Shown piece by piece: positions 5,019 through 12,164 of a stretch of 26,113 bases of DNA; position 1 is the first letter of the stretch; each line of letters starts with the position of its first letter. Under the pieces are notes generated by a model. The model was not told the DNA's origin, searched no databases, and was given only the letters and a program-made list of their open reading frames with translations. Position numbers and translations under genes: made by a program. Source of the DNA: a virus; IMG/VR virus record IMGVR_UViG_3300037587_000045, positions 1 through 26,113 of that record; one strand, given 5' to 3'.

Positions 5019-7196
5019 ATGGCAATCATTAGCAGCGATGTAGAAGACCAAGAGCTAGACAAAGAGGAAGACCGGGACATAACCGATCTTGAAGGCGTTG
5101 AGCTTCTAGCTGATATGTTCCTGATAGACCAAGGTCCAGATGGGCGCACTATCTTCAGCCCTAAGCCTAACATCGCTGACATGTTCGATGATGACACTCT
5201 GTTAACTGTCGGGCGTCTAGCTAAGGAAGGTTACGAAGCCGACCAAGACTCAATGGCTGATTGGGCTGAGCTAGTAGACTTCGGGCTAGACCTAGTTAAG
5301 CAAGAGACACACGCCCGCTCTGAGCCTTGGGATGGAGCATCAAACTTCAAATCCCCTGAACTTATGAAAGCCGCGCTCAAGTTCTCCGACAGAGCATCGA
5401 CTGAATTGCTCCGTGGTTATGAGATCCTCAAGATTAAAGTGATCGGCAAGGACGAACAGAATCAGAAGTTTGAAAGAGGTGAACGTGTTGCTGAATTCCA
5501 GAACTGGCAGCTTAACGTTGAAATGTCTGAATGGCGTGATGAGCACGAGAAATTAATCTATGACATTCCCTACACTGGCACAGTATTCAAGAAGACTTTC
5601 TTCGATGCTCAACTGGGGCGACCTGATTCAAGGATGGTCACATATCCCAACTTCGCGGTTAGTCAAGACGCCACATCTATCACTCGCTTGCGCCGGTTTA
5701 GTGAAATCCACGACTTCAGCGCCAATGAAGTAGAGGAAAAGCAACGGCAGGGGCTATGGCTGGATGTTGAATTAAACCTAGGAGACCGAGTAGACGACTC
5801 AGATCAAGAAGCATCGAACGACAAGTTCACTAGTTTTATTGAGCAAGATGGTTATTTCGATCTGGATAAAGATGGTTACGAAGAGCCTTACACCATCGTA
5901 TTCCAAGAATCGACCGGCACAGTCGTAAGAATTACGCCAAGGTTCGAACCTAAAGACGTGCTGGTTAAGGATGATAAGAATCGGCGAGCGACCACGCTTG
6001 ATCGGCTGATGGCGGATGGCGGAGCATTGCCCGAAACCTCTGGTGATCGTGAAGTTGTGCGAATTGATGCACAAGAAAACATTACTAAATATGGATTCCT
6101 CCGCGATCCTCAAGGCGGATTCTTAGACGTTGGTTATGTCCACCTATTGAGCGCCATCATTTCAGGTATAAACGCGGTTACAAACCAGCTCTTTGATGCA
6201 GGCACATTGGCTAATTTACAAGGTGGCTGGGTAGCGCGAGGGTTCAGGAAAAGGATGGGTACCAGCTCATTCAAGCCTGGTGAGTGGAAGCAAACAGGGA
6301 TTAGCGCTCAAGACCTGCAGAACGGTATCCGGCCTTTACCATTCAAAGAGCCTAGCCCTACTCTCTTCGCGCTATTGCAGTTCATGATTGCTAATGCTAA
6401 AGACCTAGCCTCTTCAGCTGATCTCAAGGGTGCTTTGGGTGCTAACACTCCGGTAGGCACCACACTAGCGCTTGTCGATGAGCAGCTGGAAGCTACGGGC
6501 GCTATTGTTAAACGCCTGTATCGGGCTATGTCATCGGAGTTCCGCAAGTTACATGAGTTGAACGCTAAGTTTACCGATCCTCTGCAGTATCAGGAGATAC
6601 TGGATGATGAACAGGCAAACTTTGAAGTAGATTTCAACCTCACAGGAATGGATATCGTCCCGGTTGCTAACCCTGAGATTGCGACTAAAACACAGCGCAT
6701 CATCCAGGCTAACGCAGAGATATCACAGGCTCAGTTGGTAGCGTTCACAGGTGGCGATGTGCGGCCTATCATCAAGAACTTCTTTGAGGCTATCGGTTCA
6801 ACGGTAGGTGATGAGGTTTATCCAGAAGAGACCCCGGATCAGCAGTTGCAACGATTACTGGCAGAGAACCCACAGCTTGAGCAATTGATTCTAGGTGAGC
6901 AAGAGCGGCTTGATCTGATTGCAGCAGCACAGGCTGAAGCACTGGAGAGAGAGGAAGCACGGAAGGACGCTAAACTAGCGATGGACCTAGACAAGGGTGA
7001 TTCAGAGACAACCCTGAACGAAGCTAAGACTATTAAGACTCTCGAAGAGGCTGAGACGGAAGACACTAAGAACCTTTCGAATCAGTACACCACCGCACTC
7101 CAGCTAGACCAGCAGGAGTTGCAAAACCAACGAGCAGCACAGGAGCTGACAAATGTTACTAACCAAAGCGGATCTACAGAAGGTTCTCAGATATGA
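5019..7196 (+). CDS. Portal protein (P22-like podovirus type)
   Basis: 725 residues, matching the length of P22-type portals (P22 gp1 is 725). It forms the ring at the special vertex through which DNA enters and leaves. An acidic N-terminus is followed by WDGASNFKSPELMKAALKF, the aromatic/acidic body and the long helix-rich stem region (LVDEQLEATGAIVKRLYRAM near residue 490). A Q/E-rich coiled coil runs from about residue 604 to the end. It follows the large terminase by four bases. Its last 14 codons are shared with the start of an HNH endonuclease gene in another frame, so the C-terminal tail may have been changed by that insertion. Confidence 0.9.
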   Translation: MAIISSDVEDQELDKEEDRDITDLEGVELLADMFLIDQGPDGRTIFSPKPNIADMFDDDTLLTVGRLAKEGYEADQDSMADWAELVDFGLDLVKQETHARSEPWDGASNFKSPELMKAALKFSDRASTELLRGYEILKIKVIGKDEQNQKFERGERVAEFQNWQLNVEMSEWRDEHEKLIYDIPYTGTVFKKTFFDAQLGRPDSRMVTYPNFAVSQDATSITRLRRFSEIHDFSANEVEEKQRQGLWLDVELNLGDRVDDSDQEASNDKFTSFIEQDGYFDLDKDGYEEPYTIVFQESTGTVVRITPRFEPKDVLVKDDKNRRATTLDRLMADGGALPETSGDREVVRIDAQENITKYGFLRDPQGGFLDVGYVHLLSAIISGINAVTNQLFDAGTLANLQGGWVARGFRKRMGTSSFKPGEWKQTGISAQDLQNGIRPLPFKEPSPTLFALLQFMIANAKDLASSADLKGALGANTPVGTTLALVDEQLEATGAIVKRLYRAMSSEFRKLHELNAKFTDPLQYQEILDDEQANFEVDFNLTGMDIVPVANPEIATKTQRIIQANAEISQAQLVAFTGGDVRPIIKNFFEAIGSTVGDEVYPEETPDQQLQRLLAENPQLEQLILGEQERLDLIAAAQAEALEREEARKDAKLAMDLDKGDSETTLNEAKTIKTLEEAETEDTKNLSNQYTTALQLDQQELQNQRAAQELTNVTNQSGSTEGSQI

Positions 7197-9731: not shown

Positions 9732-9734
9732 GAA

Positions 9735-9788
9735 GCGTGGCTAGGCTTAGCGGCTGAACAACAGGATTCGTTACCCTGTTTGCCACGC
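9735..9788 (+). ncRNA. Leader A hairpin upstream of homing endonuclease gene
   Basis: GCGTGGC (9735-9741) pairs perfectly with GCCACGC (9782-9788). Inside it AACAGG (9760-9765) pairs with CCTGTT (9775-9780). The 18 unpaired bases on the 5' side include TTAGCGGCTG, also present in leader B. It is not a tRNA: there is no anticodon arm or CCA context. Likely an mRNA 5' structure; function unknown. Confidence 0.5.
9747..9756 (+). repeat. TTAGCGGCTG shared by both leaders (copy 2 at 10537-10546)
   Basis: The ten bases recur exactly in the leader of the capsid operon. Together with GGTATA...TAGG at the 5' side and CGAGGATTC at the 3' side (9813-9821 and 10647-10655), this makes leaders A and B look like diverged copies flanking the homing endonuclease gene. 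Confidence 0.6.
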
Positions 9789-9824
9789 AATATCAGTAAC
9801 GATAATCCCTAACGAGGATTCATC

Positions 9825-10421
9825 ATGAAATCAAAAGCGATCAGATTGGTAGCTGGCATAGGCCGCAATGATGCTGACTATCAAGTCAACACGACTATAG
9901 GCGGCACAAACAAGCAATGTCCATTTTATAGAGCGTGGTTAAGTATGCTAGAACGCGCCTATTCACCGTTATTTCAAAAAAGATGCCCTACATATATCGG
10001 CTGCACAGTGTGTGATGAATGGCACTCATTCATGGCATTCCGAGAGTGGATGGCTAAACAATGCTGGGAAGGCAAACAACTAGATAAGGATATAATCAAA
10101 ATAGGGAATAGGGTTTATTGCCCTGATTATTGTTGCTTTGTAACCCAAGAAATAAACAAGTTGCTAAATAGCAGGCCATCAGTAAGGGGCGCATATCCAC
10201 AAGGAGTGCATTTGCATAAGCCTAATGGAATGTTCATGGCAGCGATAACGATAAGAAGCGAAAAGATTTGTTTAGGTTATTTCAAAACGCCAGGAGAAGC
10301 GGCTTCTATCTATCTAACGCGGAAATTTCGGCATCTGATCCAAATAGCACAAGAACAAGAGGATTATAGGGTGAGATCCGGACTGATTAATCATGCTCTT
10401 AAGTTGATTGAATCAATGTAA
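9825..10421 (+). CDS. Putative homing-endonuclease-like protein with AP2-like C-terminus
   Basis: 198 residues. The first part has the phage pattern FYRAWLSMLERAYSPLFQ (residues 34-51), CPTYIGCTVCDEW (54-66), then LDKDIIKIGNRVYCPDYCCF (86-105). This is a family I recall as commonly annotated HNH/homing endonuclease in phages. Residues about 127-170 (GVHLHKPNGMFMAAI, LGYFKTPGEAASIY) resemble an AP2 DNA-binding domain. A classical DHIN core is absent, so nuclease activity is uncertain. CGAGGA at 9813-9818 precedes the ATG. It lies between two similar leader regions, consistent with insertion upstream of the capsid operon. Confidence 0.7.
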   Translation: MKSKAIRLVAGIGRNDADYQVNTTIGGTNKQCPFYRAWLSMLERAYSPLFQKRCPTYIGCTVCDEWHSFMAFREWMAKQCWEGKQLDKDIIKIGNRVYCPDYCCFVTQEINKLLNSRPSVRGAYPQGVHLHKPNGMFMAAITIRSEKICLGYFKTPGEAASIYLTRKFRHLIQIAQEQEDYRVRSGLINHALKLIESM

Positions 10422-10450
10422 ACTTAATGCTGGTGTTATATCAAGGTTTT

Positions 10451-10461
10451 TGGTATAGAAT
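10451..10461 (+). promoter_or_regulatory. Possible promoter of capsid operon (TGGTATAGAAT)
   Basis: TGGTATAGA reads as an extended -10 (TG-n-TATAGA); TAGAAT at 10456-10461 is a 5/6 alternative. A start seven or so bases downstream would fall near 10466-10469, right at the first base of the leader hairpin (10471). No clear -35. A phage-specific or activator-dependent promoter is possible. Confidence 0.4.
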
Positions 10462-10470
10462 ACACACATA

Positions 10471-10603
10471 GGGACTCACGCCCAAAGAAAAGCCATGTAC
10501 GTCGATGGCAGGCGCACCCGGAGTCCCGATAGTCAATTAGCGGCTGGAATGTAGAAGCACTCAGCCCCTAATCAATACCAGGATAGATGTCCCGATTGAT
10601 TAG
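10471..10603 (+). ncRNA. Structured leader RNA of the capsid operon, switch-like
   Basis: Hairpin 1 nests three stems: GGGACTC (10471-10477) with GAGTCCC (10521-10527), CGCC (10479-10482) with GGCG (10511-10514), and GCCAT (10492-10496) with ATGGC (10505-10509). Hairpin 2: ATTAG-c-GGCTG (10536-10546) pairs with CAGCC-c-CTAAT (10562-10572). Hairpin 3: CTAATCAAT (10568-10576) pairs perfectly with ATTGATTAG (10595-10603). Hairpins 2 and 3 compete for CTAAT. A second GTCCCGAT (10589-10596) repeats the one at 10523-10530, so GGGAC also has two partners. Likely a cis-regulatory leader; a free small RNA is possible. I do not recognise the family. Confidence 0.6.
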
Positions 10604-10613
10604 TTAAATGTTG

Positions 10614-10634
10614 GCCCATTGTGGGCTTATTTTT
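10614..10634 (+). terminator. Terminator-like hairpin at end of capsid leader (possible attenuator)
   Basis: GCCCA (10614-10618), loop TTG, TGGGC (10622-10626), followed by TTATTTTT. The stem is only five base pairs, so it is a weak intrinsic terminator. It lies between the leader hairpins and the ribosome site of the gene at 10660, where an attenuator would act. Confidence 0.5.
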
Positions 10635-10659
10635 GATTACTCAATTCGAGGATTCTATT

Positions 10660-11229
10660 ATGTCTGGTGGATTCAGACCTACAAACGACCTTTCGGGTCA
10701 TTCGTATACAGGTAAAGTGCAAACCTTTGCCGTGGATGCGACCCACGCAACTCTGTTGGCAGTAGGTGATCTAGTCGTTGAGACTGGTAACCTAGAGGCT
10801 GCAACAGGTCTTTCCGAAGTCGATGCAATCACTGCTGGTACTGGTAATCTGATTACCGGGGTCATCGTCGCTATCGATTTCAACATCTCCAACCTTGAAA
10901 CCAAAGGTCTTGCGGCTTCCACTGCAGGCACCGTAAAAGTGGCTGTCGATCCCGACATGCTGCTCGAAGCTGAAACCCTTGGCGGCACCTTTGCACTGAC
11001 TGATGTAGGCGGCAACCTGCCTGTGACTGTCACTGCTGCAACCGCTTCAGGTAATTTGGTTAACTCCAACATGGTCGTTAATACCACCGGCAACGCTGCT
11101 AGCACTACTGAGCAGGTCCGGGTCGTCGGTGTTAAAGACTCAGGGGATATCACCTTCCCCGCTGCCGCCGGTACCACGTTGATCGTGCGTATCAATGAAT
11201 CAACCATTGGCGGCGCTGTAGGCGTTTAA
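10660..11229 (+). CDS. Putative capsid decoration/head protein
   Basis: 189 residues from ATG 10660, chosen for GAGGA (10648-10652) at proper distance; an upstream GTG at 10621 lies in the terminator-like hairpin. The protein is Ala/Thr/Val/Gly-rich and beta-dominated, with an N-terminus FRPTNDLSGHSYTGKVQTFA and no membrane segment. It is followed after 11 bases by the coat gene, where phages often encode a decoration protein. Preference for CTG and other abundant-tRNA codons, shared with the coat gene, suggests high expression. No family match is claimed. Confidence 0.65.
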   Translation: MSGGFRPTNDLSGHSYTGKVQTFAVDATHATLLAVGDLVVETGNLEAATGLSEVDAITAGTGNLITGVIVAIDFNISNLETKGLAASTAGTVKVAVDPDMLLEAETLGGTFALTDVGGNLPVTVTAATASGNLVNSNMVVNTTGNAASTTEQVRVVGVKDSGDITFPAAAGTTLIVRINESTIGGAVGV

Positions 11230-11240
11230 GGAGACTTATC

Positions 11241-12164
11241 ATGGCTGGTGTAATTGCAACTGGTAATATTAGTCGCCTCCTACAAGAAGGCGTCAAGAAT
11301 GTCTTCGGGCAGGCGTATGAAGAGCATACAACCCAATGGGATATGCTGTTTGATACAGAAAGCTCCAACAAGGCTTTTGAGCTTGATCAGCAGTTCGAAG
11401 GTTTCGGCCTGGCTCCTGTCAAGACTGAAGGCTCTGGTGTGGCTTACGATTCCCAACAGGAAGGCTTCACTCCTAAGTATCCCAACCTGACGTACGCTAA
11501 AGGCTTTATCGTCACCCGGGAAGCGATGGAAGATAACCTGTACAACCTGTTTACTCGTCGCGCTCGCGCTCTGGCTTTCTCGATGCGTCAAACCAAAGAG
11601 AATGTCGGCGCCAACATCTACAACCGAGGATTTAACTCTTCGTTTCTGATGACCGGTGGCGATGGTGTTGAGCTGTTCTCTACCGCCCACGTTAATGGGC
11701 CTTCCGACAGCACGACCTTTAGTAACGAGCTGGCAACCCCTGCAGCTTTGTCTGAAGCGAGCCTCGAGGATCTGTTGATTCAGATTCACGAAGCGACTGA
11801 CCCCCGGGGATTGCGTATCGCCATTCGTGGTGAGCGTCTGATTGTTCCGCCTAAGCTGGGATTTGAAGCAGAGCGCATTATGAACAGCGTGCTGCAGAAC
11901 GATACCGGCAATAACGCGGTCAATGCGATTCGGTCCACTGGCATGCTGCCTGCTGGTCACATGGTTAATAACTATCTGACCTCTGACACTGCCTGGTTTA
12001 TTAAGACCAACTCGCCGGACGGGGTTAAGTATTTCACCCGTCAGGAAGTACGCTTTGAGCAGGATAACGACTTCGGAACCTCGAACGCTCGTTTTAAGGC
12101 TGATGAGCGGTATGCCTTCGGCTGGACAGACCCTCGCGGGGCTTACGGTTCGGCTGGCGTTTAA
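11241..12164 (+). CDS. Major capsid protein
   Basis: 307 residues. The segment YDSQQEGFTPKYPNLTYAKG then FIVTREAMEDN (residues 69-101) is typical of HK97-fold coat proteins of the Mu-like branch, as is the C-terminal FKADERYAFGWTDPRG. The coat forms the icosahedral shell around the scaffold and is the expected client of the phage GroES-like protein plus host GroEL. AAGGAGA sits just upstream of the ATG. Codon use is shifted toward common codons compared with neighbouring genes. A strong terminator follows eight bases after the stop. Confidence 0.9.
   Translation: MAGVIATGNISRLLQEGVKNVFGQAYEEHTTQWDMLFDTESSNKAFELDQQFEGFGLAPVKTEGSGVAYDSQQEGFTPKYPNLTYAKGFIVTREAMEDNLYNLFTRRARALAFSMRQTKENVGANIYNRGFNSSFLMTGGDGVELFSTAHVNGPSDSTTFSNELATPAALSEASLEDLLIQIHEATDPRGLRIAIRGERLIVPPKLGFEAERIMNSVLQNDTGNNAVNAIRSTGMLPAGHMVNNYLTSDTAWFIKTNSPDGVKYFTRQEVRFEQDNDFGTSNARFKADERYAFGWTDPRGAYGSAGV

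Follow-up and report, generated by a model that had tools for sequence, protein, structure and literature searches.

A conserved leader with two competing helices in front of a phage capsid operon: a candidate translational switch preceded by an abiF-like RNA module

What does a strongly folded leader do in front of a phage capsid operon, when such operons are usually held to be governed by promoters and strong ribosome sites? The question is raised by the virus record IMGVR_UViG_3300037587_000045, whose positions 1 to 26,113 (26,113 nt) are the whole stretch of DNA analysed here, hereafter the window. A 221-nt leader, with the region 10471-10634 at its centre of interest, separates a stand-alone HNH ORF (9825-10421) from a 189-aa gene (Table 1). 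Its folding energy is -71.2 kcal/mol, against -52.7 kcal/mol in dinucleotide shuffles (z -4.5; 0/200). The 189-aa protein belongs to no family in Pfam or PHROGs and in Foldseek its low-confidence model is weakly similar to accessory chains of phage capsids (E above 0.05); with no family and a low-confidence structure model, a decoration function for it was dropped. Directly upstream of the HNH ORF, at 9734-9801, lies an int-alpA RNA (RF02996), and Vibrio phage 1.144.O (L195) carries a similar int-alpA-like stretch before a like-sized ORF annotated as DNA-binding. This unit of RNA and HNH ORF is missing from the relatives, which suggests a mobile insertion. A second HNH endonuclease ORF of the window (PF13392; 7153-7644) overlaps the end of a 725-aa ORF ending at 7196.

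Table 1. Features of the capsid-operon leader and its first genes (window coordinates)
Feature	Positions	Strand	Details	Basis
Promoter-like segment	10431-10467	+	extended -10 TGGTATAGAAT at 10450-10460	TGnTAWAR counts
P1	10471-10527	+	5' hairpin with abiF-antitoxin-RNA frame	shared frame; model R2
P2	10542-10566	+	hairpin GGCTGgaaTGTAGAAGCActCAGCC with U[AGAN]G tetraloop	swap test; loop motif
P3	10568-10603	+	state A, anti-sequestor; CTAATCAAT 10568-10576 / ATTGATTAG 10595-10603	pair counts; swap test
PB	10582-10659	+	state B, sequestor; 10582-10618 / 10622-10659, covers Shine-Dalgarno	predicted pairs; swap test
Shine-Dalgarno of 189-aa gene	10648-10652	+	GAGGA, paired in state B	sequence
First operon gene	10660-11229	+	189 aa, ATG 10660; decoration-like on position only	
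Major capsid protein gene	11241-12164	+		PF25209, phrog_371

Relatives were gathered by scanning with the 189-aa protein, which gave 30 viral loci, and with a profile, which gave more; two metagenome-assembled genomes were included. In all 33 distinct leaders the same gene and then the major capsid protein gene follow downstream. A DNA pattern of the core RNA, run independently of the protein, found genuine copies solely upstream of a 189-aa-type gene, and a model built on the 33 distinct leaders (R1) gave one strong site per genome in 19 related records and none in more distant capsid phages. Because pattern and R1 sites occur only in front of that gene, the leader can be regarded as its cis element. 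Its modules usually follow in the order promoter-like box, variable 5' slot (P1 in the window), P2, P3, GCCC/GGGC hairpin and ribosome site. The extended -10 motif TGnTAWAR occupies the promoter slot in 19 of 32 leaders (3.6 expected; shuffle maximum 9), from which we infer a transcript start near 10467; a scan of the leaders for the E. coli -35/-10 consensus was by itself not significant. CsrA-type GGA sites were inconstant among the leaders compared and were set aside.

The leader was unmatched among 50,697 phage records searched for cultured relatives, and the best capsid match in the cultured-phage search was 51% identical. The Rfam search proposed in a first-pass annotation of this DNA returned no family on the leader core: in Rfam 15 no family covers the P2-P3-PB leader, and it matches no riboswitch with a known aptamer. 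The metagenome-assembled genomes L193 and L194, named Colwellia and Hyphomicrobiales, carry the same phage-like locus with equally scoring leader copies, so at least one is mis-binned and binning yields no host.

Two helices, P3 and PB, lay claim to one switch strand of this leader (about 10595-10603), and both are conserved. On the plain alignment, 93.2% of P3 cells pair, and four base pairs have both partners altered (17 cells), a result reached by 0 of 500 shuffles; the perfect nine-base stem that the first-pass annotation had singled out, at the position it gave, is thus conserved with compensatory changes. Given the 33 leaders aligned by sequence alone, RNAalifold gave no structure, which we ascribe to poor alignment outside the anchors and to two incompatible folds sharing one strand. 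Covariation was therefore assessed through pair counts and through swap tests, which are light on alignment and compare the pairing of a leader's own partners with that of partners exchanged between leaders. PB was examined by swapping because the Shine-Dalgarno region is rich in indels, and its own partners (switch strand and ribosome site) paired better than foreign ones, with z -6.1 overall and -5.6, -4.1 and -4.1 after thinning at 80, 65 and 55% identity (24, 14 and 10 leaders, respectively). P3 gave z -6.3, and -3.6 in the 10 leaders below 55% identity. None of the controls, namely switch strand with coding sequence, switch strand with P2, and P2 with ribosome site, was significant. Compensatory change in PB, the helix covering the ribosome site, is exemplified by L188 (CCAGAT/ATCTGG), L186 (CTAAAAA/TTTTTAG), L104 (CTGA/TCAG) and L192 (CGAATTGAT/ATCAATTCG), and the competing upstream helix P3 likewise shows it on the switch strand. 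The covariation check on homologous leaders suggested in the annotation thus found compensatory changes in P3 and swap support for both helices.

For 28 of the 33 leaders the folding models give the PB state as the ground state, in the other five state A is predicted to be more stable than B, and P3 is predicted in 32 of 33 prefixes cut before the ribosome site (37 C). The predicted accessibility of the ribosome site of the 189-aa gene (0.21) is merely the fourth lowest among 30 window genes, so a closed ribosome site is by itself not special.

The idea that the capsid-operon leader is an RNA with two states thus stands, with conserved competing helices, though the competitor of P3 is PB and not the pairing first put forward, in which ATTAG-c-GGCTG (10536-10546) meets CAGCC-c-CTAAT (10562-10572). 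The ATTAG/CTAAT pairing exists in the TTAG clade alone, with no compensation elsewhere; it fails the swap test once close relatives are removed (z -0.8 and -0.9). As an extension of P2 that would serve as a conserved alternative it was rejected on the 10 divergent leaders (z -0.9). The 8-mer GTCCCGAT does occur at both 10523-10530 and 10589-10596, but its repetition is by itself not above chance (by our estimate roughly 0.2 expected in 164 bases), and the second partner that it would offer GGGAC at 10471 (GTCCC at 10589) is not conserved, since GGGAC-10471 sits in the variable P1 module, which is absent in L088.

We consider it probable that the leader acts in cis to switch translation of the capsid operon on and off and that a distinct RNA module precedes the switch, a reading drawn from sequence comparison and folding models. 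Transcription would start just upstream of the leader, and P1, P2 and P3 would fold as they emerge. In state A, P3 would hold the switch strand, leaving the ribosome site initially free and translation on. Once the 3' part has been transcribed, the GCCC hairpin may nucleate PB, which would zip outward and displace the 5' strand of P3, and in state B the Shine-Dalgarno would be buried in PB and translation off. The change of state would thereby set translation of the capsid operon, triggered either by a factor on the P2 and P3 hairpins that holds state A or by folding kinetics alone.

The case for a factor comes from the loops. P2 is strongly supported by swapping (z -9.8; -4.4 in the 10 divergent leaders), and a U[AGAN]G loop recurs in P2 of most leaders, in P3 of the window clade (10583-10588 in the window, its second loop of this type) and in P1 of another clade, a recurrence that points to a putative bound factor. 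A phage or host protein on the tandem U[AGAN]G hairpins could stabilise or block state A, possibly as autoregulation by a structural protein; we know of no protein for the U[AGAN]G loop, which counts against this version, and we hold it only tentatively. Somewhat unlikely is a ligand-free timer, in which new transcripts pass through A and close spontaneously to B, giving one burst of translation per transcript. The folding predictions fit such a course, with P3 present in almost all prefixes lacking the ribosome site and B winning in most full-length leaders, and co-transcriptional metastable leader structures have been proposed, with opposite sign, for a bacterial toxin mRNA (PMC6733600), but the conserved P2 and its loop are left unexplained by kinetics alone.

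The terminal hairpin was at first read as attenuator-like. The hairpin and T-run (GCCCATTGTGGGC and TTATTTTT, 10614-10634) are where they had been placed; as a conserved intrinsic terminator they find no support, the stem being short and weak. The view that the GCCC/GGGC hairpin and its U-run stop most transcripts ahead of the capsid genes, with upstream folding setting read-through, is favoured by the T at 5-7 of the eight bases past the stem in most close relatives and by the covarying hairpin arms (z -4.4). Against this, the stem comprises 3-7 pairs, mostly at -2 to -8 kcal/mol across leaders; the hairpin was not found in L104, L180 or L185, three divergent leaders; and terminator-like sites are no commoner than in shuffles (3 in 2 kb, 1.7 expected). 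Furthermore, because the hairpin is intact in both A and B, the anatomy offers no control of it. Transcription attenuation is thus improbable in our judgement, and the hairpin (10614-10626) is best seen as mainly the tip of PB rather than a terminator.

The translational switch that we favour has partial counterparts. The T4 gene soc encodes an outer-capsid protein. Inhibitory helices at the T4 genes e, soc, 49 and I-TevI conceal the Shine-Dalgarno sequence, the start codon or both (PMC3014915), and the likeness to the present leader lies in a phage gene whose ribosome site is hidden by a helix. Gene e is the case that is well documented, and there the late transcripts do without the 5' half of the inhibitory helix (PMC3014915), whereas the leader described here has both rival strands in one RNA. 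Translational riboswitches and r-protein leaders share with it a sequestor and an anti-sequestor vying for one strand beside the ribosome site; unlike them, it is confined to one uncultured phage group and has no Rfam family and no known ligand or protein. In these terms it works like a bistable Shine-Dalgarno-sequestering leader, whose two states would differ in expression.

The 5' slot varies among relatives, P1 being absent in L088 and replaced by other hairpins elsewhere. In L091 and L093 it holds a type I hammerhead-like ribozyme and further structured RNA in place of P1 (ribozyme at 2696-2744 in L093 and about 2690-2740 in L091; RF00163, 25 bits, below threshold). Stem I of the ribozyme differs between the two yet pairs in both (CCTAAGA/TCTTAGG, CTACGC/GCGTAG), and the structured domain that follows is conserved, its core pattern occurring in only those two viral contigs.

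AbiF is a Cas13-related defence. AbiF systems, which are type III-like, have the abiF RNA (RF03085) as their antitoxin (PMC12373285), and the parts of this RNA follow one another as in window P1: an outer stem, one A, an inner CGC/GCG stem and a CACCNN bulge of 6 nt. In P1 these parts are the outer stem 10471-10477/10521-10527, A10478, the inner stem 10479-10482/10511-10514 and the 3' bulge CACCCG (10515-10520). P1 differs in its enlarged apical loop (29 nt against about 10), in that the window record has no AbiF gene, and in drawing no Rfam call, its score against RF03085 being below the gathering threshold. The Rfam scan of L082 P1 was likewise without a call, and the slot of L094 is an Rfam abiF match at 48 bits (threshold 37). 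The conserved apical loop CUCUYAACRAU is absent from window P1 and kept in part by L082 and L083. No PF07751 (Abi_2 toxin) gene occurs in the records of the window, L091, L093 or L094.

The frame of outer stem, A, CGCC...GCG, CACCNN and outer stem is common to window P1 and the chromosomal abiF RNAs adjoining Abi_2 genes in L196, L201 and L202. Required to have an outer stem of at least six pairs, it occurs at 22 sites in 2.8 Mb of both-strand sequence, and, with two exceptions, these fall in leader slots, at abi loci or in the capsid-linked abiF RNA of L044. A model built on canonical and variable-loop abiF-type hairpins with the leader sequences left out (R2) was run over 234 kb, and the six sites that it ranked highest were the P1 slots in L094 (E 7e-8), L082 (2e-4), L083 (4e-4), L085, the window and L087 (the last three 0.17-0.75). 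For window P1 this score over 234 kb is weak (12.8 bits, E 0.73); with R2 confined to 10400-10700, P1 is the top site (E 9e-4). Window P1 is most likely a diverged abiF-type RNA, an assignment that leans on the slot common to L082, L083 and L094, not on the window alone.

Orphan abiF RNAs also occur in other viral contigs. The 20-base consensus abiF core occurs in at least 80 viral contigs (L206-L285), and, with a positive control run, no Abi_2-like ORF was found in these listed contigs or in L044 within the sequence examined. Several viral abiF RNAs lie directly 3' of capsid or other structural genes, among them those 14-23 nt past the major head protein gene in L044 (RNA at 5912-5954), L209 and L280. 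A pattern scan of viral contigs further found abiF-type hairpins with apical loops of 5 to 35 nt, against 10, in L334, L344, L345, L348, L351, L362, L379, L389 and L394. In L344, L345, L351, L362, L379 and L389 the frame is constant, the apical loops vary strongly (24-35 nt), and no Abi_2-like gene was found within the sequence examined. The P2-P3-PB core RNA does not accompany the abiF-type RNAs of other phages.

The abiF RNA neutralises the AbiF toxin of C. difficile in cis and in trans (PMC12373285), and an anti-AbiF decoy is a plausible role for phage abiF-type RNAs; for P1, which would head the capsid-operon transcript, it would be the most likely one. PhiTE offers a likeness, its RNA antitoxin mimicry against ToxIN (PMC3475682) being a viral RNA resembling a type III antitoxin; the toxin family differs, and P1 as a mimic would form part of a capsid leader. 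A further-reaching proposal, which we regard as a long shot, is that P1, as a phage copy of AbiF-antitoxin RNA, titrates the host AbiF ribonuclease, that its free or toxin-bound state influences capsid-operon translation via P2-P3-PB, and, more broadly, that orphan abiF-type RNAs with freely varying loops are late-operon defence decoys. That the leader is instead a stand-alone small RNA ending at 10634, with the capsid genes downstream by accident, is unlikely and receives very little credence from us, for its own promoter-like box, terminator-like end and abiF-like P1 are countered by the occurrence of P2-P3-PB solely before a 189-aa-type gene and by the covariation of PB with the ribosome site.

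A conserved two-state RNA before the capsid operon suggests that capsid supply in these phages may be controlled at the level of translation. The abiF-type module in front of it, together with at least 80 listed viral abiF contigs without an AbiF-like gene in the sequence examined, suggests that phages may have made decoys from an antitoxin RNA.
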